This document shows positions 2,995 through 14,619 of a DNA stretch of 33,123 nt, piece after piece. The notes beneath the pieces are model-generated. The model had not been told where the DNA came from. It did no database searches and saw only the letters and a program-made list of their open reading frames with translations. Position numbers and translations under genes: made by a program. Every line of letters begins with the position of its first letter. Position 1 is the first letter of the stretch. This DNA is from Gammaproteobacteria bacterium. Its GTDB lineage: Bacteria; Pseudomonadota; Gammaproteobacteria; Steroidobacterales; Steroidobacteraceae. Location: the NCBI GenBank assembly GCA_023265875.1, contig JAHFSF010000006.1, positions 1-33,123 on the forward strand, in the 5' to 3' direction.

Positions 2995-5661
2995 ATGAAC
3001 ATCAACCTTGGCCGATTCGGCTTTCTGGCCGTGATGGTCGCCAGCCTGGCAGCTTGCGGCGGTAGTGGCAGCAATCCTGTACCGCCCCCACCGCCGCCGC
3101 CACCCGGGGCAACCCTTGCTGAAACCATCGCTGCGGCAGCGGCGGACCCCGCCAACGACTCAGCGGTCAACCCGGCTGCGGCCTTTACGGTCCTGCAAGA
3201 GGCCGACAAGCCGGTCGTCACGGTGGCGAGCCCGCCCAAGGTGAACTTCACGGTGTTTTCCGACGGCAAGGTGGTGAAGGGCCTCACGACGACCTCCAAT
3301 GTGAGGTTTGTCCTCGCCAAGCTGGATCCGGGCACCGACGGCGATCCCGACCAGTGGGTGAGTTATGTCTATACGACCGAGACGGCCACCGCTGGCGTGG
3401 GTCCGGGCGGCAATCCGGTGCTGGCATCGGCCTTGCAGCCGACCAGCGACCCGAGAAGCGAGCCTCAACTGGTCTATAACTCCGATGGTTACTACACCTA
3501 CACGTTCAGCACCGACATCACCGACCCGACCAAGACCCAGGGCGTCATTTATGAGCCCGGCAAGACCCATCGCATCGGCATCCAGCTGAGCTATTTGAAC
3601 GCCGCTGGCGAGACGGTTCGCGTCAATCCCACTTTCGACTTCACTCTCGACGCCAGCGGCAATTCGGTGGCCGTCACCGACGCCACCAAGTCGCACAAGG
3701 TGGTCGATGTGTCCACCTGCAACGAGTGCCACAACAAGCTCGCGCTGCACGGTGGTGGGCGGGTTGACACGCAGTATTGCGCGCTATGCCACAACTCCGG
3801 CAATACCGATGCCAACAGCGGCAACGTGCTCGACCTGCGGACCATGGTCCACAAGATCCATGCCGGAGGGTTCCTGCACGAGGAAGGCGACGACTACGTC
3901 ATCTGGGGCTTCCAGAACAGCGAGCATAGCTACACCGACGTCGGCTTCCCGGCCAACGTGCGCGACTGCGCCAAGTGCCACGACGGCAGCAAGAAGGATG
4001 CACAGGGCAACCAGCTGGCCGCGCAGGGCGATAACTGGAAGAAGGTGCCCAGCAAGCAGGCGTGCCTGTCTTGCCACGAATCGGGCGCGACGAGCGACTG
4101 GTACAACATCCACATCACGACCCTGGGTCTCGGCACATCGGTGGACAACGTCACCAACGCTTTTTGTGCGAGCTGCCACGGCGCCGGGGAACAGTGGAGT
4201 CCCGACCGGGTGCACTGGCTCCAGGAGCTGGAGAACACGGCGCTTTATCAGCACAAGATCGAGAGCGTCACGCTGACCACGAAGCCCACGGCGACGACCC
4301 CTGGTGAATTGACGGTCAAGTACTCGCTCATCAACCCCGCCACGAGCGCCATCTATGACTTGAGGCAAGGCTGCGGCGCGGCTGGCACGGCGCTGGATGA
4401 CGCTGGAACTGCGATACCGAAGTGCTACACGAACTACCGGTGGTTTACGGCACCGCTGAGCCCCACGAACCAGCCTCAGGACAAGTTCGGCACGATCGGC
4501 GCCACCCTGGCCGTGGACGATTTCCCGACCCCTTCCGACCAGACCGAGGATGACACGAACTCTACTGTGTCCAAAGCGGCATATCTGGGCGTGGACGACG
4601 GTGCGCATCATTACTCTTTCAAGATACCTGTGCCCAAAGGCTCGCACAGCAACGCCAGGATCGTGATGCTGGGTTCGGTCGCAGAGCAGAGAATCGATCC
4701 CATTTCGCGTCTGGCCGTCGGGGCAGTGCCGCCCACGACGCACGAGGATCTGGCCTACGTGCCGGTGAAGAATGCGATCTACGAGATCAACCTCGACACC
4801 GCGCCCGTCGGCACCGCCGCGCCGCCTTCGAACATCGCGCGGCGCCAGATCGTCTCCAACGTCAAGTGCAACGCGTGTCACGTGTATCTCGGAATTCCGA
4901 TGGACCCGGTGATCGGGGCGACCGCATTCCACTCGGGCGTGCGCAACAACTCGGAGAACTGCGAGATCTGCCATAACTGGCAGCGGGCGGCCAGCTATAC
5001 CGTCATGGCGGATGGCAGCGACTTCAACGAGTCCTACGATGTGACGCGCATGGTCCATGGCATCCACGGCGGCGAGAAGCGGACCTATCCCTTCGTGCAC
5101 GGCAACGACCTGCAGGGAGAGTTCGCAAAAGATGGCACGCGCATCGTCCCGAATGACGGCGCGCCGCTGCAGAGCCAGTCCGGGACAGCCGCAGAGGTCG
5201 TCAACTTCACCGCTGAGGTGGCCTTCCCCGGCAGGCTGGCGGATTGCAACACCTGCCACGTGAACGAGGCCTGGAAGCAGAACAGGGGTGTATTTGGCTC
5301 CTCAATTGTGGGCACCAGCGGGGGCGTCCTGAATGGCAAATACACCAATCCCGGCATCGTTCGCTTCATGGCTTCGGGTGCTTGCGTCGGCCCGAGCGGC
5401 CCCATTACCGACCCACCGACGGCTATTAGCTGTGCATCGATCGATACGTCGAAGCTTCCGGTAATCTCGCCCAAGGCGGCGGTATGCACGGCCTGCCACG
5501 ATGCCAAGGGCGTGCAGGACCACGCAATCAACGTGGGTGGCGCTAGCTTCGGCAACAAGAACCAGGGCGATGTCCTGGCGAGCAGGGTATTCGAGGTCTG
5601 CGATGGTTGCCACGAACCGGGTGGCTTCGCCGGCATCGATATCAAGCACGGCCTGAACTGA
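2995..5661 (+). CDS. OmcA/MtrC-family decaheme c-type cytochrome, outer-membrane lipoprotein
   Basis: 888 aa; signal peptide with lipobox (LAAC-GG), Pro-rich linker PPPPPPPP, ten CXXCH motifs (CNECH, CALCH, CAKCH, CLSCH, CASCH, CNACH, CEICH, CNTCH, CTACH, CDGCH). Confidence 0.93.
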   Translation: MNINLGRFGFLAVMVASLAACGGSGSNPVPPPPPPPPGATLAETIAAAAADPANDSAVNPAAAFTVLQEADKPVVTVASPPKVNFTVFSDGKVVKGLTTTSNVRFVLAKLDPGTDGDPDQWVSYVYTTETATAGVGPGGNPVLASALQPTSDPRSEPQLVYNSDGYYTYTFSTDITDPTKTQGVIYEPGKTHRIGIQLSYLNAAGETVRVNPTFDFTLDASGNSVAVTDATKSHKVVDVSTCNECHNKLALHGGGRVDTQYCALCHNSGNTDANSGNVLDLRTMVHKIHAGGFLHEEGDDYVIWGFQNSEHSYTDVGFPANVRDCAKCHDGSKKDAQGNQLAAQGDNWKKVPSKQACLSCHESGATSDWYNIHITTLGLGTSVDNVTNAFCASCHGAGEQWSPDRVHWLQELENTALYQHKIESVTLTTKPTATTPGELTVKYSLINPATSAIYDLRQGCGAAGTALDDAGTAIPKCYTNYRWFTAPLSPTNQPQDKFGTIGATLAVDDFPTPSDQTEDDTNSTVSKAAYLGVDDGAHHYSFKIPVPKGSHSNARIVMLGSVAEQRIDPISRLAVGAVPPTTHEDLAYVPVKNAIYEINLDTAPVGTAAPPSNIARRQIVSNVKCNACHVYLGIPMDPVIGATAFHSGVRNNSENCEICHNWQRAASYTVMADGSDFNESYDVTRMVHGIHGGEKRTYPFVHGNDLQGEFAKDGTRIVPNDGAPLQSQSGTAAEVVNFTAEVAFPGRLADCNTCHVNEAWKQNRGVFGSSIVGTSGGVLNGKYTNPGIVRFMASGACVGPSGPITDPPTAISCASIDTSKLPVISPKAAVCTACHDAKGVQDHAINVGGASFGNKNQGDVLASRVFEVCDGCHEPGGFAGIDIKHGLN

Positions 5662-5685: not shown

Positions 5686-5714
5686 GGGAGAGCCGGCGAT
5701 GGCTCTCCCTTTTT
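5686..5714 (+). terminator. Rho-independent terminator GGGAGAGCC-ggcgat-GGCTCTCCC-TTTTT
   Basis: Perfect 9-bp GC-rich stem, 6-nt loop and T-run directly after the first decaheme gene. Confidence 0.9.
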
Positions 5715-5842
5715 ATACAGGCCGCGGTCCATGCTGCACTCGACAGTCAATTCGCGCCGGAGGTATTCTGCAGAGACGCCGGGGAAGGACAGCGAATGCG
5801 CTTGAACAAGATAACAATGGCGCGCCACCAGCCCAGGCAGTC

Positions 5843-8113
5843 ATGAGCAAGTATCGAAGCCGGGACCGATGGATCAACGTGGTGGCGGCGTGCTTGCTGG
5901 CACTGGCCGCGGGCGGCTGCGGCAGTGGCTCCGGTGGCGGCGCGGGTCCCGTGGGGCTACCCCAGGTGCCGCCCGGAGGTCCGGCGGCGCTCACCGCCGC
6001 GACGGCCCTGACCATCAGCATTGCCGCAGTGACCGTCGACGCCAGGCCAGTCGTGAACTTCGCGGTCGTCAATCAGGCCGGTGTCGGCATGGCCGGCCTG
6101 GCTGCCACCGACCTCGGATTCAATATCGCCAAGCTGGAGCCGGGATTGAATGGCGAGCCGACCAACTGGCAGAACTATATCAACCAGGCGACGGCTGGGG
6201 CCGTACAGGGCAGCCAGGAACGAGCAGCCGCTGGCTATCCCTTCGGTACCCTGGTCGACCACCAGGATGGAACCTATACCTATACCTTTGCTACCGATAT
6301 CAAGGACCCGGCGGCGAACCTCTGCCCGGCGCCATGCGTGGATGCCGCAGGCAAGGCGCTGCACGTCAGCTATCAGCCAGACGTGACGCACCGCGTGACG
6401 ATCCAGCAGGTCAACGACGCGTATCCGAAGTCCACGGGCGTGTTTGATTTCGTGCCGTCCGGCGCCGCCGGCATCCGGCGCGAAATCGTGCTGACGTCCA
6501 CCTGCAACCAGTGCCACCACGAACTTTCGGCGCACGCAACGCGGGTCGACACCCGCTTGTGCGTGACTTGCCACAACCCGGGTTCCTGGGTTGGCGGGAG
6601 TCCCGGCACGACAGTGGATTTCAAGGTGATGATCCATCGGATCCACTACAACAACGCCGGCAGCGCCCTGCCGAGCGTTCTCGCGGGCTTCCCGTACACG
6701 ATCGGCGATGCCGATTTCTCGGAAGTCGTGTTTACGCAGGATGTTCGCAACTGCGCGAGGTGCCACGACGGTTCGCTCAGCGCGCAGGGCGACCACTGGA
6801 AGGCCCAGCCCGGCATGGAAGCCTGCGGCTCGTGCCACGACGATGTTTATTTCGGCGCCCAGCCCGATCCGGCGAGGCCGTATCAGACGGTCGCGCACCC
6901 GGGCGGCGTCGTGACCGATAACAGCACCTGCCTGCTGTGCCATGGACCCGGGCGAGTCGCGGATGTCACGGTTGCGCATGACTTGCCGGCGCAGCTCAAG
7001 GCGGCGGCGGCCAGGTTCAAGTTCAACATACTCAGCGCCGCACCGACCGCGCCGGGTGGTTTCCCCGTCATCACCTTCTCGGTCACCGATCCGACCGATG
7101 GAGACAGGCCTTACGACATCACGACCGACGCGGCGTTCACGGCCGGTGGCGCCAGTACGCTGAATGTCCGGCTTGGCTGGACCAGGTCGGGCATCGCGGA
7201 TATCGGCAACGACGGCAGCAGCCAGAATTTTGGCCAGCCCGTCAGCATGAATGCCTTGACCACCGCGGTGCCGGGAAGCACGGTGGGTACCTACACCGTC
7301 ACCGCCACGGTCGCGATCCCGGTCACCCAGACCGGTACGCTGCGGGTCATGGTGGACGGGCATCCCGCCGGCGATGTCACGACTCCCGGGACATTCAGCG
7401 ATCGGCTGGCTGTCAAGAGTGCCTTCAGGGACTTTGCGATCACCGGCACGGCAGTGGCGCGTCGGCTGGTCGTCGACATCGCCAAGTGCAACGTGTGCCA
7501 TGACGTGCTGAGCCTGCATGGACGAAACCGTACCGACGAGCCCGGCGTGTGCGCGGTCTGCCACAACCCGAACGCGACCGACGCGGGCCGGCGCCCGGCT
7601 ACGGCGGGTGTGCTGACGGGTGGCATCGATGGCAAGCTCGAAGAGGCGGTCGATTTCAAGAGCATGATCCACGGCATTCACGCCGGCCAGGCGAGCAATG
7701 GCGGGTTCCGCGAGAAAGGACTGGTGATCTACGGCTTTGGCGGCAGCGTGAACGACTTCAGCAAGGTCGTCTTTCCGGGAAAACTGGGCAACTGCACTGC
7801 CTGCCATACCGACACCTCGTACGAGCTGACTGGTGCCTGGGAGTCTCCGACCGCCAACGGGATACTCGCAACCACGACCACGACCGCAGTCTCCGCGAGC
7901 GATGCGGCTGACAACCTGAGGACCACGCCGACCGCGGCAGTGTGTTCATCGTGCCACGACAAGGTGGGTCCGCAGGTTCACATGACGGAAGTCGGCGATG
8001 GACAGTTCGCGGTGACGCAGGCGGCCATCAACGTTGGCGCGCCTGAAATCTGCGGCATTTGCCATGGACCGGGCGGGCCGGTGGATGTCAAGGCCGTCCA
8101 CCACGTGAAGTAG
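5843..8113 (+). CDS. OmcA/MtrC-family decaheme c-type cytochrome, second paralog
   Basis: Translation MSKYRSRDRWINVVAACLLALAAGGCGSGSGGG... with lipobox and ten CXXCH motifs. The ORF-track start at 5699 lies inside the terminator, so 5843 is preferred. Confidence 0.9.
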   Translation: MSKYRSRDRWINVVAACLLALAAGGCGSGSGGGAGPVGLPQVPPGGPAALTAATALTISIAAVTVDARPVVNFAVVNQAGVGMAGLAATDLGFNIAKLEPGLNGEPTNWQNYINQATAGAVQGSQERAAAGYPFGTLVDHQDGTYTYTFATDIKDPAANLCPAPCVDAAGKALHVSYQPDVTHRVTIQQVNDAYPKSTGVFDFVPSGAAGIRREIVLTSTCNQCHHELSAHATRVDTRLCVTCHNPGSWVGGSPGTTVDFKVMIHRIHYNNAGSALPSVLAGFPYTIGDADFSEVVFTQDVRNCARCHDGSLSAQGDHWKAQPGMEACGSCHDDVYFGAQPDPARPYQTVAHPGGVVTDNSTCLLCHGPGRVADVTVAHDLPAQLKAAAARFKFNILSAAPTAPGGFPVITFSVTDPTDGDRPYDITTDAAFTAGGASTLNVRLGWTRSGIADIGNDGSSQNFGQPVSMNALTTAVPGSTVGTYTVTATVAIPVTQTGTLRVMVDGHPAGDVTTPGTFSDRLAVKSAFRDFAITGTAVARRLVVDIAKCNVCHDVLSLHGRNRTDEPGVCAVCHNPNATDAGRRPATAGVLTGGIDGKLEEAVDFKSMIHGIHAGQASNGGFREKGLVIYGFGGSVNDFSKVVFPGKLGNCTACHTDTSYELTGAWESPTANGILATTTTTAVSASDAADNLRTTPTAAVCSSCHDKVGPQVHMTEVGDGQFAVTQAAINVGAPEICGICHGPGGPVDVKAVHHVK

Positions 8114-8127
8114 ACGCGGCAGACGAC

Positions 8128-9084
8128 ATGCGCTGGATGAATCAGATGAATATCGAGAAGTCTTTATTTGCCGTGGTGCTGCTGTCGTCGGGCCTTGGGT
8201 TCAGCATTGCCGCGTCTTCGTCGCCGGCCGGTGACCAGGGGATGGAATACAGCGCAAACGGCGCCGATACCTGCCTCCTGTGCCACACCGAGGCCTGGGC
8301 GTACCCGATCTATCCGATCTTCAAGACCAAGCATGCGAACCGCGCCGACAAGCGCACGCCTTTTGCAGGATTGCAATGCGAAGCCTGCCATGGCCCGGGC
8401 GGCAAGCACGCCACCACCGGCAGCAAGGACGCCATAAACAGTTTCAAGGAGACCTCTTTCCTTTCGGTCCGGCAGCGCAACGAGGCCTGTCTGGGCTGCC
8501 ATCAGGGCAATGCCCGCGTCGGGTGGGTCGGCAGCACCCATGAGACCAGCAATCTGGCGTGCACCAGTTGCCACCAGCTTCACGTGGAGCACGATCCGGT
8601 GCTTGCCAGGGCCACCCAGCCTGAGGTCTGTTACAAGTGCCACCTGAAGGAACGCGCGGAGTTCAATAAACCGTCCGCGCATCCGGTGCGCTTCGGCCTC
8701 CTCACTTGCAGCGAATGTCACAGCCCGCATGGGTCGATTGCCGTCGCGATGCTGGCCAGGCCCACCCTGAACCAGACCTGCTATACCTGTCATGCGGAAA
8801 AGCGCGGGCCGTTCCTTTGGGAACATGCGCCGGCGGCCGAGGATTGCAGCTTGTGTCACTCGCCGCACGGCTCGGCTCACGCGTCATTGTTGAAGAAGGA
8901 TCCGCCCCTGCTCTGCCAGCAGTGTCATGCGGTGGCCGGTCATCCGTCCGTGGCGTACACCAGCGCCGCGTTGCCGGGAGGCGGTGGGGGCGGAGCGGCA
9001 TTCCTGCTTTCCGGAGGCTGCATCAACTGCCATTCGCAGGTTCACGGGTCAAACCATCCGTCGGGCATCAAGCTGATGCGATAG
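8128..9084 (+). CDS. DmsE/MtrA-family periplasmic decaheme c-type cytochrome
   Basis: Signal peptide, ten CXXCH motifs, typical C-terminus GGCINCHSQVHGSNHPSGIKLMR. Confidence 0.92.
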   Translation: MRWMNQMNIEKSLFAVVLLSSGLGFSIAASSSPAGDQGMEYSANGADTCLLCHTEAWAYPIYPIFKTKHANRADKRTPFAGLQCEACHGPGGKHATTGSKDAINSFKETSFLSVRQRNEACLGCHQGNARVGWVGSTHETSNLACTSCHQLHVEHDPVLARATQPEVCYKCHLKERAEFNKPSAHPVRFGLLTCSECHSPHGSIAVAMLARPTLNQTCYTCHAEKRGPFLWEHAPAAEDCSLCHSPHGSAHASLLKKDPPLLCQQCHAVAGHPSVAYTSAALPGGGGGGAAFLLSGGCINCHSQVHGSNHPSGIKLMR

Positions 9085-9119: not shown

Positions 9120-11201
9120 ATGAAAACTGCGACCCAGCTGTTCCTGCTCGGCATGCTTTCGGCCCTGTCTGCCGCCGCCGCCGGCCAGCCAACCGTCGAC
9201 ACGTCGAAGTGGGAATGCAAACTTTGCAAATTCGATGATGGACTGAGCGGCACGCTGGAACTGGGTGGCGGAAATGTCTCGGATTCGTCGTCCAAGTCCG
9301 GCGAATACAACGGCTTACACGAGCAAGGCGGGTTTCTTGTCGCCGACGGCACGGCGCGCTATCGCGGCACCGATGCAGGCTACTGGACCGTCAGCGCATC
9401 GAATCTCGGGCTGGATACGCGCTCGCTGGCTGCCGAGGGCGGGCAACAGGGCATCTACAAGCTGTTTCTCAATTACGACGAGTCGCCGCATTTCGTCTCC
9501 GACAGCGCGCAAACGCCGTTCATCGGCAAGGGCAGTCCGTCATTGACACTGCCGGCCGGCTTTCCCGCGGGCACGACAGGTCTCATGCCTCTGGCGAGCA
9601 CGCTGCAGCCGGTCGACCTTGAAACGAAGAGGCAAAAGCTGGGAGCGGGTGCGTCCTGGACGCCGGTGCGCGACTGGATGTACGCGGTCAAATTCAGTCA
9701 CCAGACCCGCGACGGCACCAAAGGCACCGCCGGTACGTTCTTCGTCAATGCCTCCCAGCTGGTTGCGCCGATGGAGGATGTGACCGATCAATTGGACGTT
9801 TCGGCCTCGTACACGGGCGCCAGGTTGCACGCGAAGCTCGCGTATTACGGCTCGATGTTCCGTAACAACGATGCCGCTCTGAGCTGGCAAAACCCATTTG
9901 CGGTCCCGGCATTCCCCGCTGCCGTTGCCGGCCAACTCGCGCTGCCTCCGGATAACGAATCTCACCAGATTTCTGCTGCCGCAGGCTATCAGCTGAGCGA
10001 CCGGACGCGGGCCACGGCCGACGTCGCTTATAGCCGCATGACGCAGGATGACGCTTTCCTCGCGCCGACCCTGAATCCGACTCTTGCCGCCCCGGCCCTG
10101 CCGCGAGTTTCGCTGAATGGCCGCGTAAATATTTTCAGCGGGAACCTTGAACTCAACTCGGCGGTCACGGACCGGGTCCGGCTGAAAGCAGCGTACTCAC
10201 ACAACGATCGCGATAATCAAACGCCGCAGGCGGAATACGCCTGGGTGACGACCGACATGTTCCTCGCGACGCCGAGGACAAACCTTCCGTACAGCTTCAC
10301 CCAGGACCGGGTGAAACTGAGGGCCGACTACCAGGCGCCGGCTCACATCAAGGCTTCCCTCGGCCTCGATCATGACTCCAACAAACAGACGTTTCAGGAG
10401 GTCGATACCACCCGCGAGGATACGATCTGGGGAAAGGTGAACGCCCATGCCCTGCACAGAATCGACGTGACGCTGAAGCTCGCCCACGGCGAGCGCGAGA
10501 ACACGGGCTACCAGGCGGTCGACTCGATCACCCCGCCGGAGAATCCTCTGCTGAGAAAATACAACATGGCCGATCGCACGCGGGACAGCGCAGAACTGCG
10601 AGCCGACATTGCGGCGACGGCAAAAATAGACATCGGGCTCCAGGTCGATGCTTCCGAAGACGAGTATTCTGATTCGGCAATCGGCCTGACGAGTGGCAGG
10701 GACCTCAATCTGAATGGCGATGTCGCGATGATGCTGACGGAGCAGACCAGCCTGCACTTCTTCGCGAACCACTAGATGATCAAGTCAAGGCAGACTGGGA
10801 GCCAGACATTCTCGACGCCGGACTGGCGGGGCGATAACAAGGACACGATCGATTTCGCGGGAATCGGCATCAGGAAAGCGGCGATCAAGGACAAACTCGA
10901 TGTCGGCGCGGATTACACGTTTACCCGGTCACGGAGCGAAGTCGGCGTCAAGAGGGGAGTCATTGAACCCGGCTTCCCCGATCTTTCCACCACGCGCCAT
11001 AGCCTGAAACTCTATGCCACCTATCGCATCAAGGATGACTGGTCGCTGCGCGCAGGGTACTGGTACGAACACTATGACAGCGAGAACTGGATGCTCGATG
11101 GCGTCACTGCCGGCACGATCCCGAATGTCCTGACCTTTGGCCAGCAACCGCCCCAGGATCGCGTGCACGTGGTCGCCGTGTCTGCGAGATATAAGTTCTA
11201 G
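9120..11201 (+). pseudogene. MtrB/PioB-family decaheme-associated outer-membrane beta-barrel, interrupted by in-frame TAG at 10773-10775
   Basis: MKTATQLFLLGMLSALSAAAAGQPTVDTSKWECKLCKFDDGLSGTLELGGG (CXXC characteristic of MtrB-type proteins). The same frame resumes immediately after the stop (ATG at 10776) and ends ...VHVVAVSARYKF with a C-terminal aromatic residue. Pseudogene status is not certain. Confidence 0.8.
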
Positions 11202-11942: not shown

Positions 11943-12674
11943 ATGAAGACTCTGAGAAAAGTGCTGGTCGTTGACGATGATCCGGTAATCGGCAAGAGCT
12001 TCGACCGGGTCCTCGCGGGAAAGGGTTACGCCGTGATCACGGCCCGTGATGGGGAAGAGGCGCTGCGCAAGCTCCGCGACGAAAAATACGATGTCGTCTT
12101 CACCGACATCAAGATGCCGGGAATGAGCGGCATCGAGGTAGCCGAGCGGATCAAGGCCACCCAGCCGTGGCTCCCGGTCGTGATCGTCACAGGCTATGGC
12201 ACCGACGCCAATGAAGCCAAGGCGCAGGCAGCGGGCGTCTCCGGCTTCCTGCGCAAGCCGTTGTCGCCAGAAATGATCGAGGGAAGCGCGCAGAAGGCCC
12301 TGCTCGAGAGAGACGTCACGGCTCCACCGGAGGTGGCCAAAGAGATTGCGCAGCCGCATCCGGCAGTCGTCAGGACGGAATTGCGCAGCGCCTGGAAGAG
12401 CATCGCGCTCTTCATCGCAGCGCCATTCATCGGGCTGATCTACGTCCTCGCCGGTCCCTTCATCGGGCTCGGCATGCTGGCGTGGATGGGCATGAAAGCG
12501 CTGGCGAAGCACCGCGCAACGAGGCGGATCGCCGTGTTCGTGAAGGACGTCGCCCTGTTCCTGGCGGCGCCTTTCGTGGGCCTGGCGTATATTGTCCTGT
12601 TCCCGTTCATCGGACTCGGCATGCTGGCCTGGACGGGCGCGCGGACATTGCTGAACCGGCCTGATCGGCAGTGA
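11943..12674 (+). CDS. Response-regulator receiver fused to a duplicated hydrophobic C-terminal hairpin region
   Basis: Receiver KVLVVDDDPVIG...DVVFTDIKMPGMSG, then two similar segments IALFIAAPFIGLIYVLAGPFIGLGMLAWMGMKAL and VALFLAAPFVGLAYIVLFPFIGLGMLAWTGARTL. Confidence 0.88.
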   Translation: MKTLRKVLVVDDDPVIGKSFDRVLAGKGYAVITARDGEEALRKLRDEKYDVVFTDIKMPGMSGIEVAERIKATQPWLPVVIVTGYGTDANEAKAQAAGVSGFLRKPLSPEMIEGSAQKALLERDVTAPPEVAKEIAQPHPAVVRTELRSAWKSIALFIAAPFIGLIYVLAGPFIGLGMLAWMGMKALAKHRATRRIAVFVKDVALFLAAPFVGLAYIVLFPFIGLGMLAWTGARTLLNRPDRQ

Positions 12675-12760
12675 GAGTGCGACCCGACCGGCGGTGCTTG
12701 ATGCAAGTCAAGCCCCGCCTGGGCAGTGGGGCCTATCATCTGCCGCAGGAGGGAGCAGCG

Positions 12761-13942
12761 ATGGGGCGCTCGCGGAACCAAGGCGCAGCGACGCGAACGA
12801 GATTGCTGCAGGGCCCGCTCTTCCGCCTGATTGCCGCGCTTCCGTTTCTTTTCGCCACATCCTTTGCCGCGGATGCCGCGGAAAGCACTCTCTCGGCCGC
12901 CGACAACGCATGTCTCGGCTGTCACTCGATCGAAGGCCTGGCCAAACAACTGCCGGACGGCGAAGCGATGTCTCTGCAGGTTCCGGGAGACGCCTTTGCG
13001 AAATCGGTCCACCGGCTGATCGGATGCACCGGCTGCCACGCGGGCATCGATCTCGCGAAGCACGCTGCGGCAACGAGCGACATCAGGAGCCTGCGCCAGT
13101 ATTCCATCGAGCGGGCGGAAACCTGCCGCCTATGTCATCAAGCTGCAGCCGAGCAGCACGAGGCCAGCGTCCATGCCGCGCGCGCCCGTGCGGGCAATAC
13201 GCTCGCCCCGGTTTGCACGGGTTGCCATGGTTCCCACTCGGTCAGCCCCAGGACGGCGTATGAGACCTGTGCGCGCTGCCACGCGGCCGATCTTGGCGCC
13301 CACAGCCAATGGCTGCCGAATGCGAAACTTCATCATGCGGTCGTGGCATGTGCCGCCTGCCATGCGCCAGCGGCGCTGCGGATGCTGGACCTGAGACTTT
13401 ACGACGGCGCAACGAACAAATGGGTCGTGGAGAAAGAAGACTCGCCCCGGTTTGAGCAAATGGCGAGTGCGGCCGACGCGGATCGAAACGGCCTGGATGC
13501 CGCGGAATTGCGCAACCTCCTCAGGGAAATCAACCACGACGCGGCGGTAACGCCCAGGACCCTGCGCGGACGCGTCGAGCTGCGCGTCGGTGTCGAGGCG
13601 CATCTGCTCGCCGACAAGGCCCACGCAATCAGGGCCTGCGACAGCTGCCACCGTTACGGCGCCGAACCATTCCAGAATGTCACGGTTTCCATCACCAGAT
13701 CCGACGGCAGGCCGTTGCGTTATCCGGCCCAGAGGGAAATCCTGGGCTCCACGCTGGCGATCGAATCGCTGCCGGAGTTTTATGCCATCGGCGGCACGCG
13801 CAGCGTATTCCTCGACTCCCTCTTCATCCTCGCCCTGGTCGCCGGAATCGGTATCCCGATCGGGCACCTGACGGTGAAATGGCTGTTCAGGAAGCAGCGT
13901 GCGCGCCGTGATCGCCAGGGCCGCGCGGACGGCGCCGGATAA
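12761..13942 (+). CDS. Heptaheme c-type cytochrome with signal peptide and C-terminal transmembrane anchor
   Basis: Seven CXXCH motifs; EF-hand-like DADRNGLDAAEL; C-terminal TM helix SLFILALVAGIGIPIGHLTVKWLF; RBS aggaggga before ATG 12761. Confidence 0.85.
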   Translation: MGRSRNQGAATRTRLLQGPLFRLIAALPFLFATSFAADAAESTLSAADNACLGCHSIEGLAKQLPDGEAMSLQVPGDAFAKSVHRLIGCTGCHAGIDLAKHAAATSDIRSLRQYSIERAETCRLCHQAAAEQHEASVHAARARAGNTLAPVCTGCHGSHSVSPRTAYETCARCHAADLGAHSQWLPNAKLHHAVVACAACHAPAALRMLDLRLYDGATNKWVVEKEDSPRFEQMASAADADRNGLDAAELRNLLREINHDAAVTPRTLRGRVELRVGVEAHLLADKAHAIRACDSCHRYGAEPFQNVTVSITRSDGRPLRYPAQREILGSTLAIESLPEFYAIGGTRSVFLDSLFILALVAGIGIPIGHLTVKWLFRKQRARRDRQGRADGAG

Positions 13943-13956
13943 GGGGGAAATGCGCC

Positions 13957-14619
13957 ATGCCGAGGATCTACATCCACCCGCTGCCGGTACGGATCTGGCA
14001 CTGGATCAATGCCCTCGGCTTCGTGGCATTGATACTGACCGGCATCCAGATCCGTTATGCGGACCGGCTCGGACTGGTGTCCTTCAGGAACGCGGTCCAC
14101 CTGCACAACTGGATCGGTTTCGTTCTTGTCGCGAACTTCTTCATCTGGTTCCTGTTCTATGTCTTTTCGGACAAGATCAGGGTCTATCACCCGGAACTGA
14201 GCCCGATGAAGCATTTCCGCGGCAGCCTGCGTCAGCTCCAGTATTACGGTTACGGCATTTTCAGGGGCGATCCCAATCCGCACCACGTGAGTGCGTACCA
14301 CAAGTTCAATCCGCTGCAGAGCACGACCTACCAGATCATCATGCTGCTGGTGGTTCCCCTGCAATTCTTCACCGGCCTGATGCTCTGGGACCTGGAGCGT
14401 TTCTCGGCGGCGGTGGAGTTCTTCGGGGGAGTCCGCGTCGTCGACACCGTGCACGTGCTGTGCTTCATTTTCTTCGTGGGGTTCATTTTCATTCATCCAT
14501 ATCTGTCAAGCCTAGCGCGCCCGCCCTCGGCGCACTTCAAGGCCATGCTTACCGGATACGAGGAAGTCGAGGAAGAACCCGGCCAGGGCGACGCTGGCAG
14601 GATCGACACGCCCCCGTAA
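13957..14619 (+). CDS. Cytochrome b subunit (b561 / thiosulfate-reductase or formate-dehydrogenase gamma-like)
   Basis: RIYIHPLPVRIWHWINALGFVALILTGIQIRYAD..., four predicted TM helices with conserved His residues; follows the heptaheme gene by 14 bp. Confidence 0.85.
   Translation: MPRIYIHPLPVRIWHWINALGFVALILTGIQIRYADRLGLVSFRNAVHLHNWIGFVLVANFFIWFLFYVFSDKIRVYHPELSPMKHFRGSLRQLQYYGYGIFRGDPNPHHVSAYHKFNPLQSTTYQIIMLLVVPLQFFTGLMLWDLERFSAAVEFFGGVRVVDTVHVLCFIFFVGFIFIHPYLSSLARPPSAHFKAMLTGYEEVEEEPGQGDAGRIDTPP

Follow-up and report, generated by a model that had tools for sequence, protein, structure and literature searches.

A lone in-frame TAG in the mtrB porin gene of a Steroidobacteraceae metagenome-assembled genome, most likely a consensus base error of the assembly

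The crystal structure of MtrB is a barrel of 26 strands (PMC7198977). The porin gene described here, from a metagenome-assembled genome (MAG; 2.31 Mb, 222 contigs, 77% complete), shares with the MtrB/PioB family the N-terminal CXXC pair (C33/C36, invariant in the alignment of relatives), the 26 strands, the terminal Phe and the adjoining dmsE/mtrA and mtrC genes, but differs in carrying an in-frame TAG in this assembly, which is seen in none of the other members examined. MtrB of the Shewanella baltica MtrCAB complex (6R2Q chain B) aligns to residues 19-692 of the read-through product with an E value of 4e-101. Conserved mtrB genes are also interrupted in other draft metagenome assemblies, although by frameshifts that spread the gene over two or three frames rather than by a lone substitution. 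These frameshifted copies are found in G451:C242 (L089), equivalent to L160 of Chromatiales Ww634, and in G607:C74 (L194); the title of the L160 contig gives a coverage of 3.4x. Natural nonsense suppression, as by the supE-type tRNA-Gln (CUA) of E. coli, offers a further parallel, in that UAG stands at Gln or Glu sites of otherwise intact genes.

The window, i.e. the whole analysed stretch of 33,123 nucleotides, contains an mtrB frame that starts with ATG at 9120 and runs uninterrupted to TAG at 10773-10775, after which ATG ATC AAG opens 141 further codons ending with Phe and a second TAG at 11199-11201. Reading of the sequence thus agrees with the preliminary description, which had reported a clean frame split by a TAG that an ATG follows directly. 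This TAG is the sole interruption between 9120 and 11201, and a second lesion is absent. The same frame is listed as open from 8706, upstream of the ATG as well, which is a matter of chance in a genome of 66% G+C. In profile searches, residues 55-551 cover positions 4-492 of PF11854 (E 4e-132) and the downstream 141 residues cover positions 494-635 of 635 (E 2.5e-35), leaving exactly one profile position to the TAG, with the two halves contiguous; TIGR03509 gives the same picture, and the read-through frame matches PF11854 over its full length with 582 bits. Two in-frame halves that abut to one codon are far beyond chance expectation, and the gene, judged by its sequence, is an ordinary MtrB/PioB outer-membrane porin with a read-through length of 693 residues. 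An N-terminal signal peptide, MKTATQLFLLGMLSALSAAAAG, was recognized by eye. No further PF11854 gene was found in this genome.

Table 1. Features of the mtrB locus and other genes interrupted by one in-frame stop (positions without a contig number are those of the window)
Feature	Position	Strand	Evidence
Further OmcA/MtrC-family decaheme cytochrome, 10 CXXCH	2995..5661	+	TIGR03507 E 1e-135, heme count
OmcA/MtrC-family outer-membrane decaheme cytochrome, 10 CXXCH	5699..8113	+	TIGR03507 E 7e-142, heme count
DmsE/MtrA-type periplasmic decaheme cytochrome, 10 CXXCH, ends with TAG	8059..9084 (ORF limits)	+	TIGR03508 E 3e-89, heme count
mtrB/pioB, codons 1-551: signal peptide, N-terminal portion, strands 1-20 and part of 21	9120..10772	+	PF11854 4-492, TIGR03509, identity to relatives, AlphaFold
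In-frame TAG, residue 552 of mtrB	10773..10775	+	Sequence, alignment of relatives
mtrB/pioB, C-terminal 141 codons: last five strands, terminal Phe, ends with TAG	10776..11201	+	PF11854 494-635, strands, no excess divergence
gatB, one in-frame TAG	contig 109, 14875-14877 (L308)	-	GatB_N across the stop; solved homologue aligns across it with Glu at the stop
icd (NADP-dependent isocitrate dehydrogenase), one in-frame TAG	contig 57, 3101 (L256)	+	Iso_dh; solved ICDH aligns across, Glu at the stop
metG (methionyl-tRNA synthetase), one in-frame TAG	contig 68, 3336 (L267)	+	6WQ6 across the stop with Glu; TIGR00398, NF001100
D-succinylase/penicillin-amidase-like gene, one in-frame TAG	contig 38, 2030-2032 (L237)	-	Penicil_amidase; solved D-succinylase aligns, Glu at the stop
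627-aa frame, one in-frame TGA	contig 24, 3109-3111 (L223)	-	Unbroken match in G003, G005, G006 and G030

The gene order in the window is mtrC-mtrC-dmsE-mtrB, with mtrB adjoining the decaheme genes, and mtrC-dmsE-mtrB is the order common to most of the relatives examined. The true start of the DmsE/MtrA-type gene is probably downstream of the TTG at the ORF limit. The two OmcA/MtrC-family genes lie in tandem upstream of dmsE-mtrB, and only the second of the pair is closely conserved in relatives. Further downstream are genes for a seven-heme cytochrome and a cytochrome b561-type protein (12671-13942 and 13957-14619), preceded by a response regulator and followed by an NtrC-type regulator and a histidine kinase; together they may serve the regulation of the EET locus and its supply with electrons.

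To place the stop among relatives, we searched 217 genomes from the same family and obtained a PF11854 match above the family cut-off in 53; among the matches listed, only that of the window contains an in-frame stop. A single-sequence protein scan of genome contigs returned nothing, and an alignment query led to 80 named loci. The nearest are from the Betaproteobacteria MAGs SG8_41 (L109) and RIFCSPLOWO2_12_FULL_62_13 (L110), each at ~70% identity; in another comparison, the first 551 codons showed 52% identity to the best relative. The stop column is read straight through in all 100 full-length relatives aligned and none has a stop there, so the conservation of the stop that would mark programmed readthrough or recoding is absent from these 100 sequences. 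Nor are the two segments separate proteins in any of them, an arrangement that the preliminary description had named as evidence against a split porin. The residues in the column are E (54), Q (30), D (9), T (4), A (2) and N (1), i.e. Q, E or D in 93 of 100, encoded mostly by CAG, GAG or GAA, and the solved MtrB 6R2Q has Gln. L109 has CAG and L110 has GAG; a single substitution is sufficient to produce the TAG, as had been proposed. Judged from these alignments, the TAG is private to this assembly. No relevant paper came up in a literature search on premature stop codons in MtrB.

AlphaFold models the read-through product with 26 barrel strands (pTM 0.70) and places residue 552 inside the strand 543-560, the 21st of 26, with five strands and the terminal Phe after it; the product, as the sequence stands, would be without strands 22-26. 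The terminal Phe is used as the BAM signal, and a barrel cut at residue 552 would not be expected to assemble, judging from known BAM signals. The preliminary description had also raised the possibility that reinitiation at TAGATG gives a two-piece barrel by design, for which the ATG directly after the stop and the 141 open codons could speak. This is implausible because the second ORF, which begins MIKSRQTGSQTF, lacks a signal peptide, and CTTCTTCGCGAACCACTAG, ahead of its ATG, contains no Shine-Dalgarno sequence on inspection. Since Met follows the stop column in 0 of 100 full-length relatives, the adjoining ATG seems to be coincidental. With the break in a modelled beta strand instead of a loop, and with no split relative, we consider a designed two-piece barrel extremely improbable.

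We also compared constraint on both sides of the stop. The dN/dS values are ~0.26 (L109) and ~0.21 (L110) upstream, and ~0.36 and ~0.44, respectively, downstream; the C-terminal part is slightly faster-evolving in most intact relative pairs too, in the same direction. In relative-rate counts, the window's mtrB behaves alike before and after the stop, and neither measure, with L109 and L110 as references, reveals relaxed constraint downstream. Because the downstream part is undecayed and carries no second lesion, the nonsense change appears either very recent or not real in the organism. A genuine recent nonsense mutation would mean that the sampled population has lost MtrB, the barrel without strands 22-26 and its terminal Phe being degraded, and that the EET locus is dead while its other genes have not yet decayed. 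One substitution is enough for this, an unaltered downstream part, as observed, is what a recent event predicts, and mtrB is non-essential, unlike metG or gatB. On the other hand, the adjoining cytochromes are all intact with 10 hemes each, in line with what was first said of the neighbouring genes, and stops of the same kind occur in gatB, metG and icd, where real loss is hardly tolerable. We thus regard this option, which the preliminary description had also listed, as unlikely.

The stops in these other genes came from a scan covering about half of the genome (120 contigs, which with the window add up to 1.16 Mb) for same-frame ORF pairs with coding composition, by codon usage, on both sides of one stop; most pairs returned in this way are true gene boundaries. 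Pruning by Shine-Dalgarno sequences lost known cases and was dropped, and in a tblastn census against the ORFs of relatives, which reached only 104 kb of the genome's own contigs, shadow frames swamped the result. A Pfam domain extends across the stop in 3 of 20 TAG junctions read through (GatB_N, Iso_dh and Penicil_amidase), versus 0 of 60 TGA/TAA junctions under the same rule. The metG case came from a relaxed junction list, and the TGA junction of contig 24 was picked by eye and then confirmed by homology. The latter gene has no Pfam or NCBIfam match and is weakly M32-carboxypeptidase-like at its end, and it is uninterrupted in the same-genus genomes G003, G005 and G006 (74% identity to G006) as well as in G030. 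Including mtrB, at least six lone in-frame stops (five TAG and one TGA) are thus found in about half of the genome. Since gatB, icd, metG, the D-succinylase-like gene and the contig 24 gene are also affected, such lesions are not confined to the EET locus. Because metG and gatB count as essential or nearly so, real nonsense alleles in them are unlikely; gatB was found in a single copy. Consensus base errors seem to account better than gene inactivation for lone stops, of two types, in genes that are essential.

The five TAG sites fall in Glu columns in four cases and in a Gln/Glu column in the fifth. Such a pattern would be anticipated from amber suppression, in which UAG is read as Gln or Glu at appreciable frequency, is nearly silent at tolerant sites and accumulates. 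Amber-specific recoding was in fact our first suspicion, from the 3/20 versus 0/60 contrast, and was weakened by the TGA case on contig 24, which shows that the in-frame stops are not confined to TAG. In addition, RF1 is present, none of the 27 tRNAs found in the 77% complete genome has a CUA anticodon, in contrast to the supE-type system, and TAG is an ordinary terminator that ends 117 of 573 long ORFs (~20%), including the neighbouring dmsE-like gene. Back-up stops within 10 codons are not in excess behind TAG (14%, versus 21% behind TGA), and among the family-wide matches listed for gatB and icd (>100 each), the window's genome is the only one with a stop inside. The readthrough suggested in the preliminary description keeps the Gln/Glu columns in its favour, but we judge it improbable.

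A sequencing or assembly error, another of the options first listed, is the one that we favour from comparison with the lone stops elsewhere in the same assembly: the stop in mtrB is probably a consensus base error. The true mtrB would be whole, and a single-base substitution to TAG, private to the assembly, would have arisen in a fragmented, probably low-coverage MAG. In support of this, similar lesions are spread across unrelated genes, essential ones included. Under random substitution in this codon usage, the expected TAG share is 50-58% and the probability of at least five TAG among six is 0.11-0.20, so that five TAG and one TGA are compatible with it. The implied substitution rate, ~2-4e-4 per base, is plausible for a thinly covered assembly. 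Two observations run against a base error: the restriction of domain-spanning junctions to TAG in the scan, and the placement of all five TAG at Glu or Gln/Glu columns, which is narrower than uniform random error predicts, with six cases in all behind this bias. G-to-T oxidation is a known library artefact (PMC12390751). At GAG it would fit the TAG pattern, but hits at GAA and GGA would also be expected.

If the stop is an error, as we infer, the conduit would be functional. In the living organism, the barrel would then sheathe the decaheme DmsE/MtrA-type cytochrome, and electrons would cross the outer membrane to MtrC, as in MtrCAB. Its mtrC-dmsE-mtrB conduit would thus be normal and the organism should be classed as EET-capable, whereas the gene would be reported by automatic annotation as a pseudogene or as two fragments. 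The same reading carries a warning, namely that in this reference genome essential genes are disrupted by base errors. Should the stops prove real, this organism would instead exemplify pervasive nonsense tolerance: an uncultured bacterium in which nonsense codons, mostly UAG at Glu/Gln positions, are tolerated in the essential genes metG, gatB and icd and in an EET porin because they are read through by a suppressor tRNA or by leaky termination, with UAG still terminating about one gene in five, a prospect to which we assign only a slight chance.
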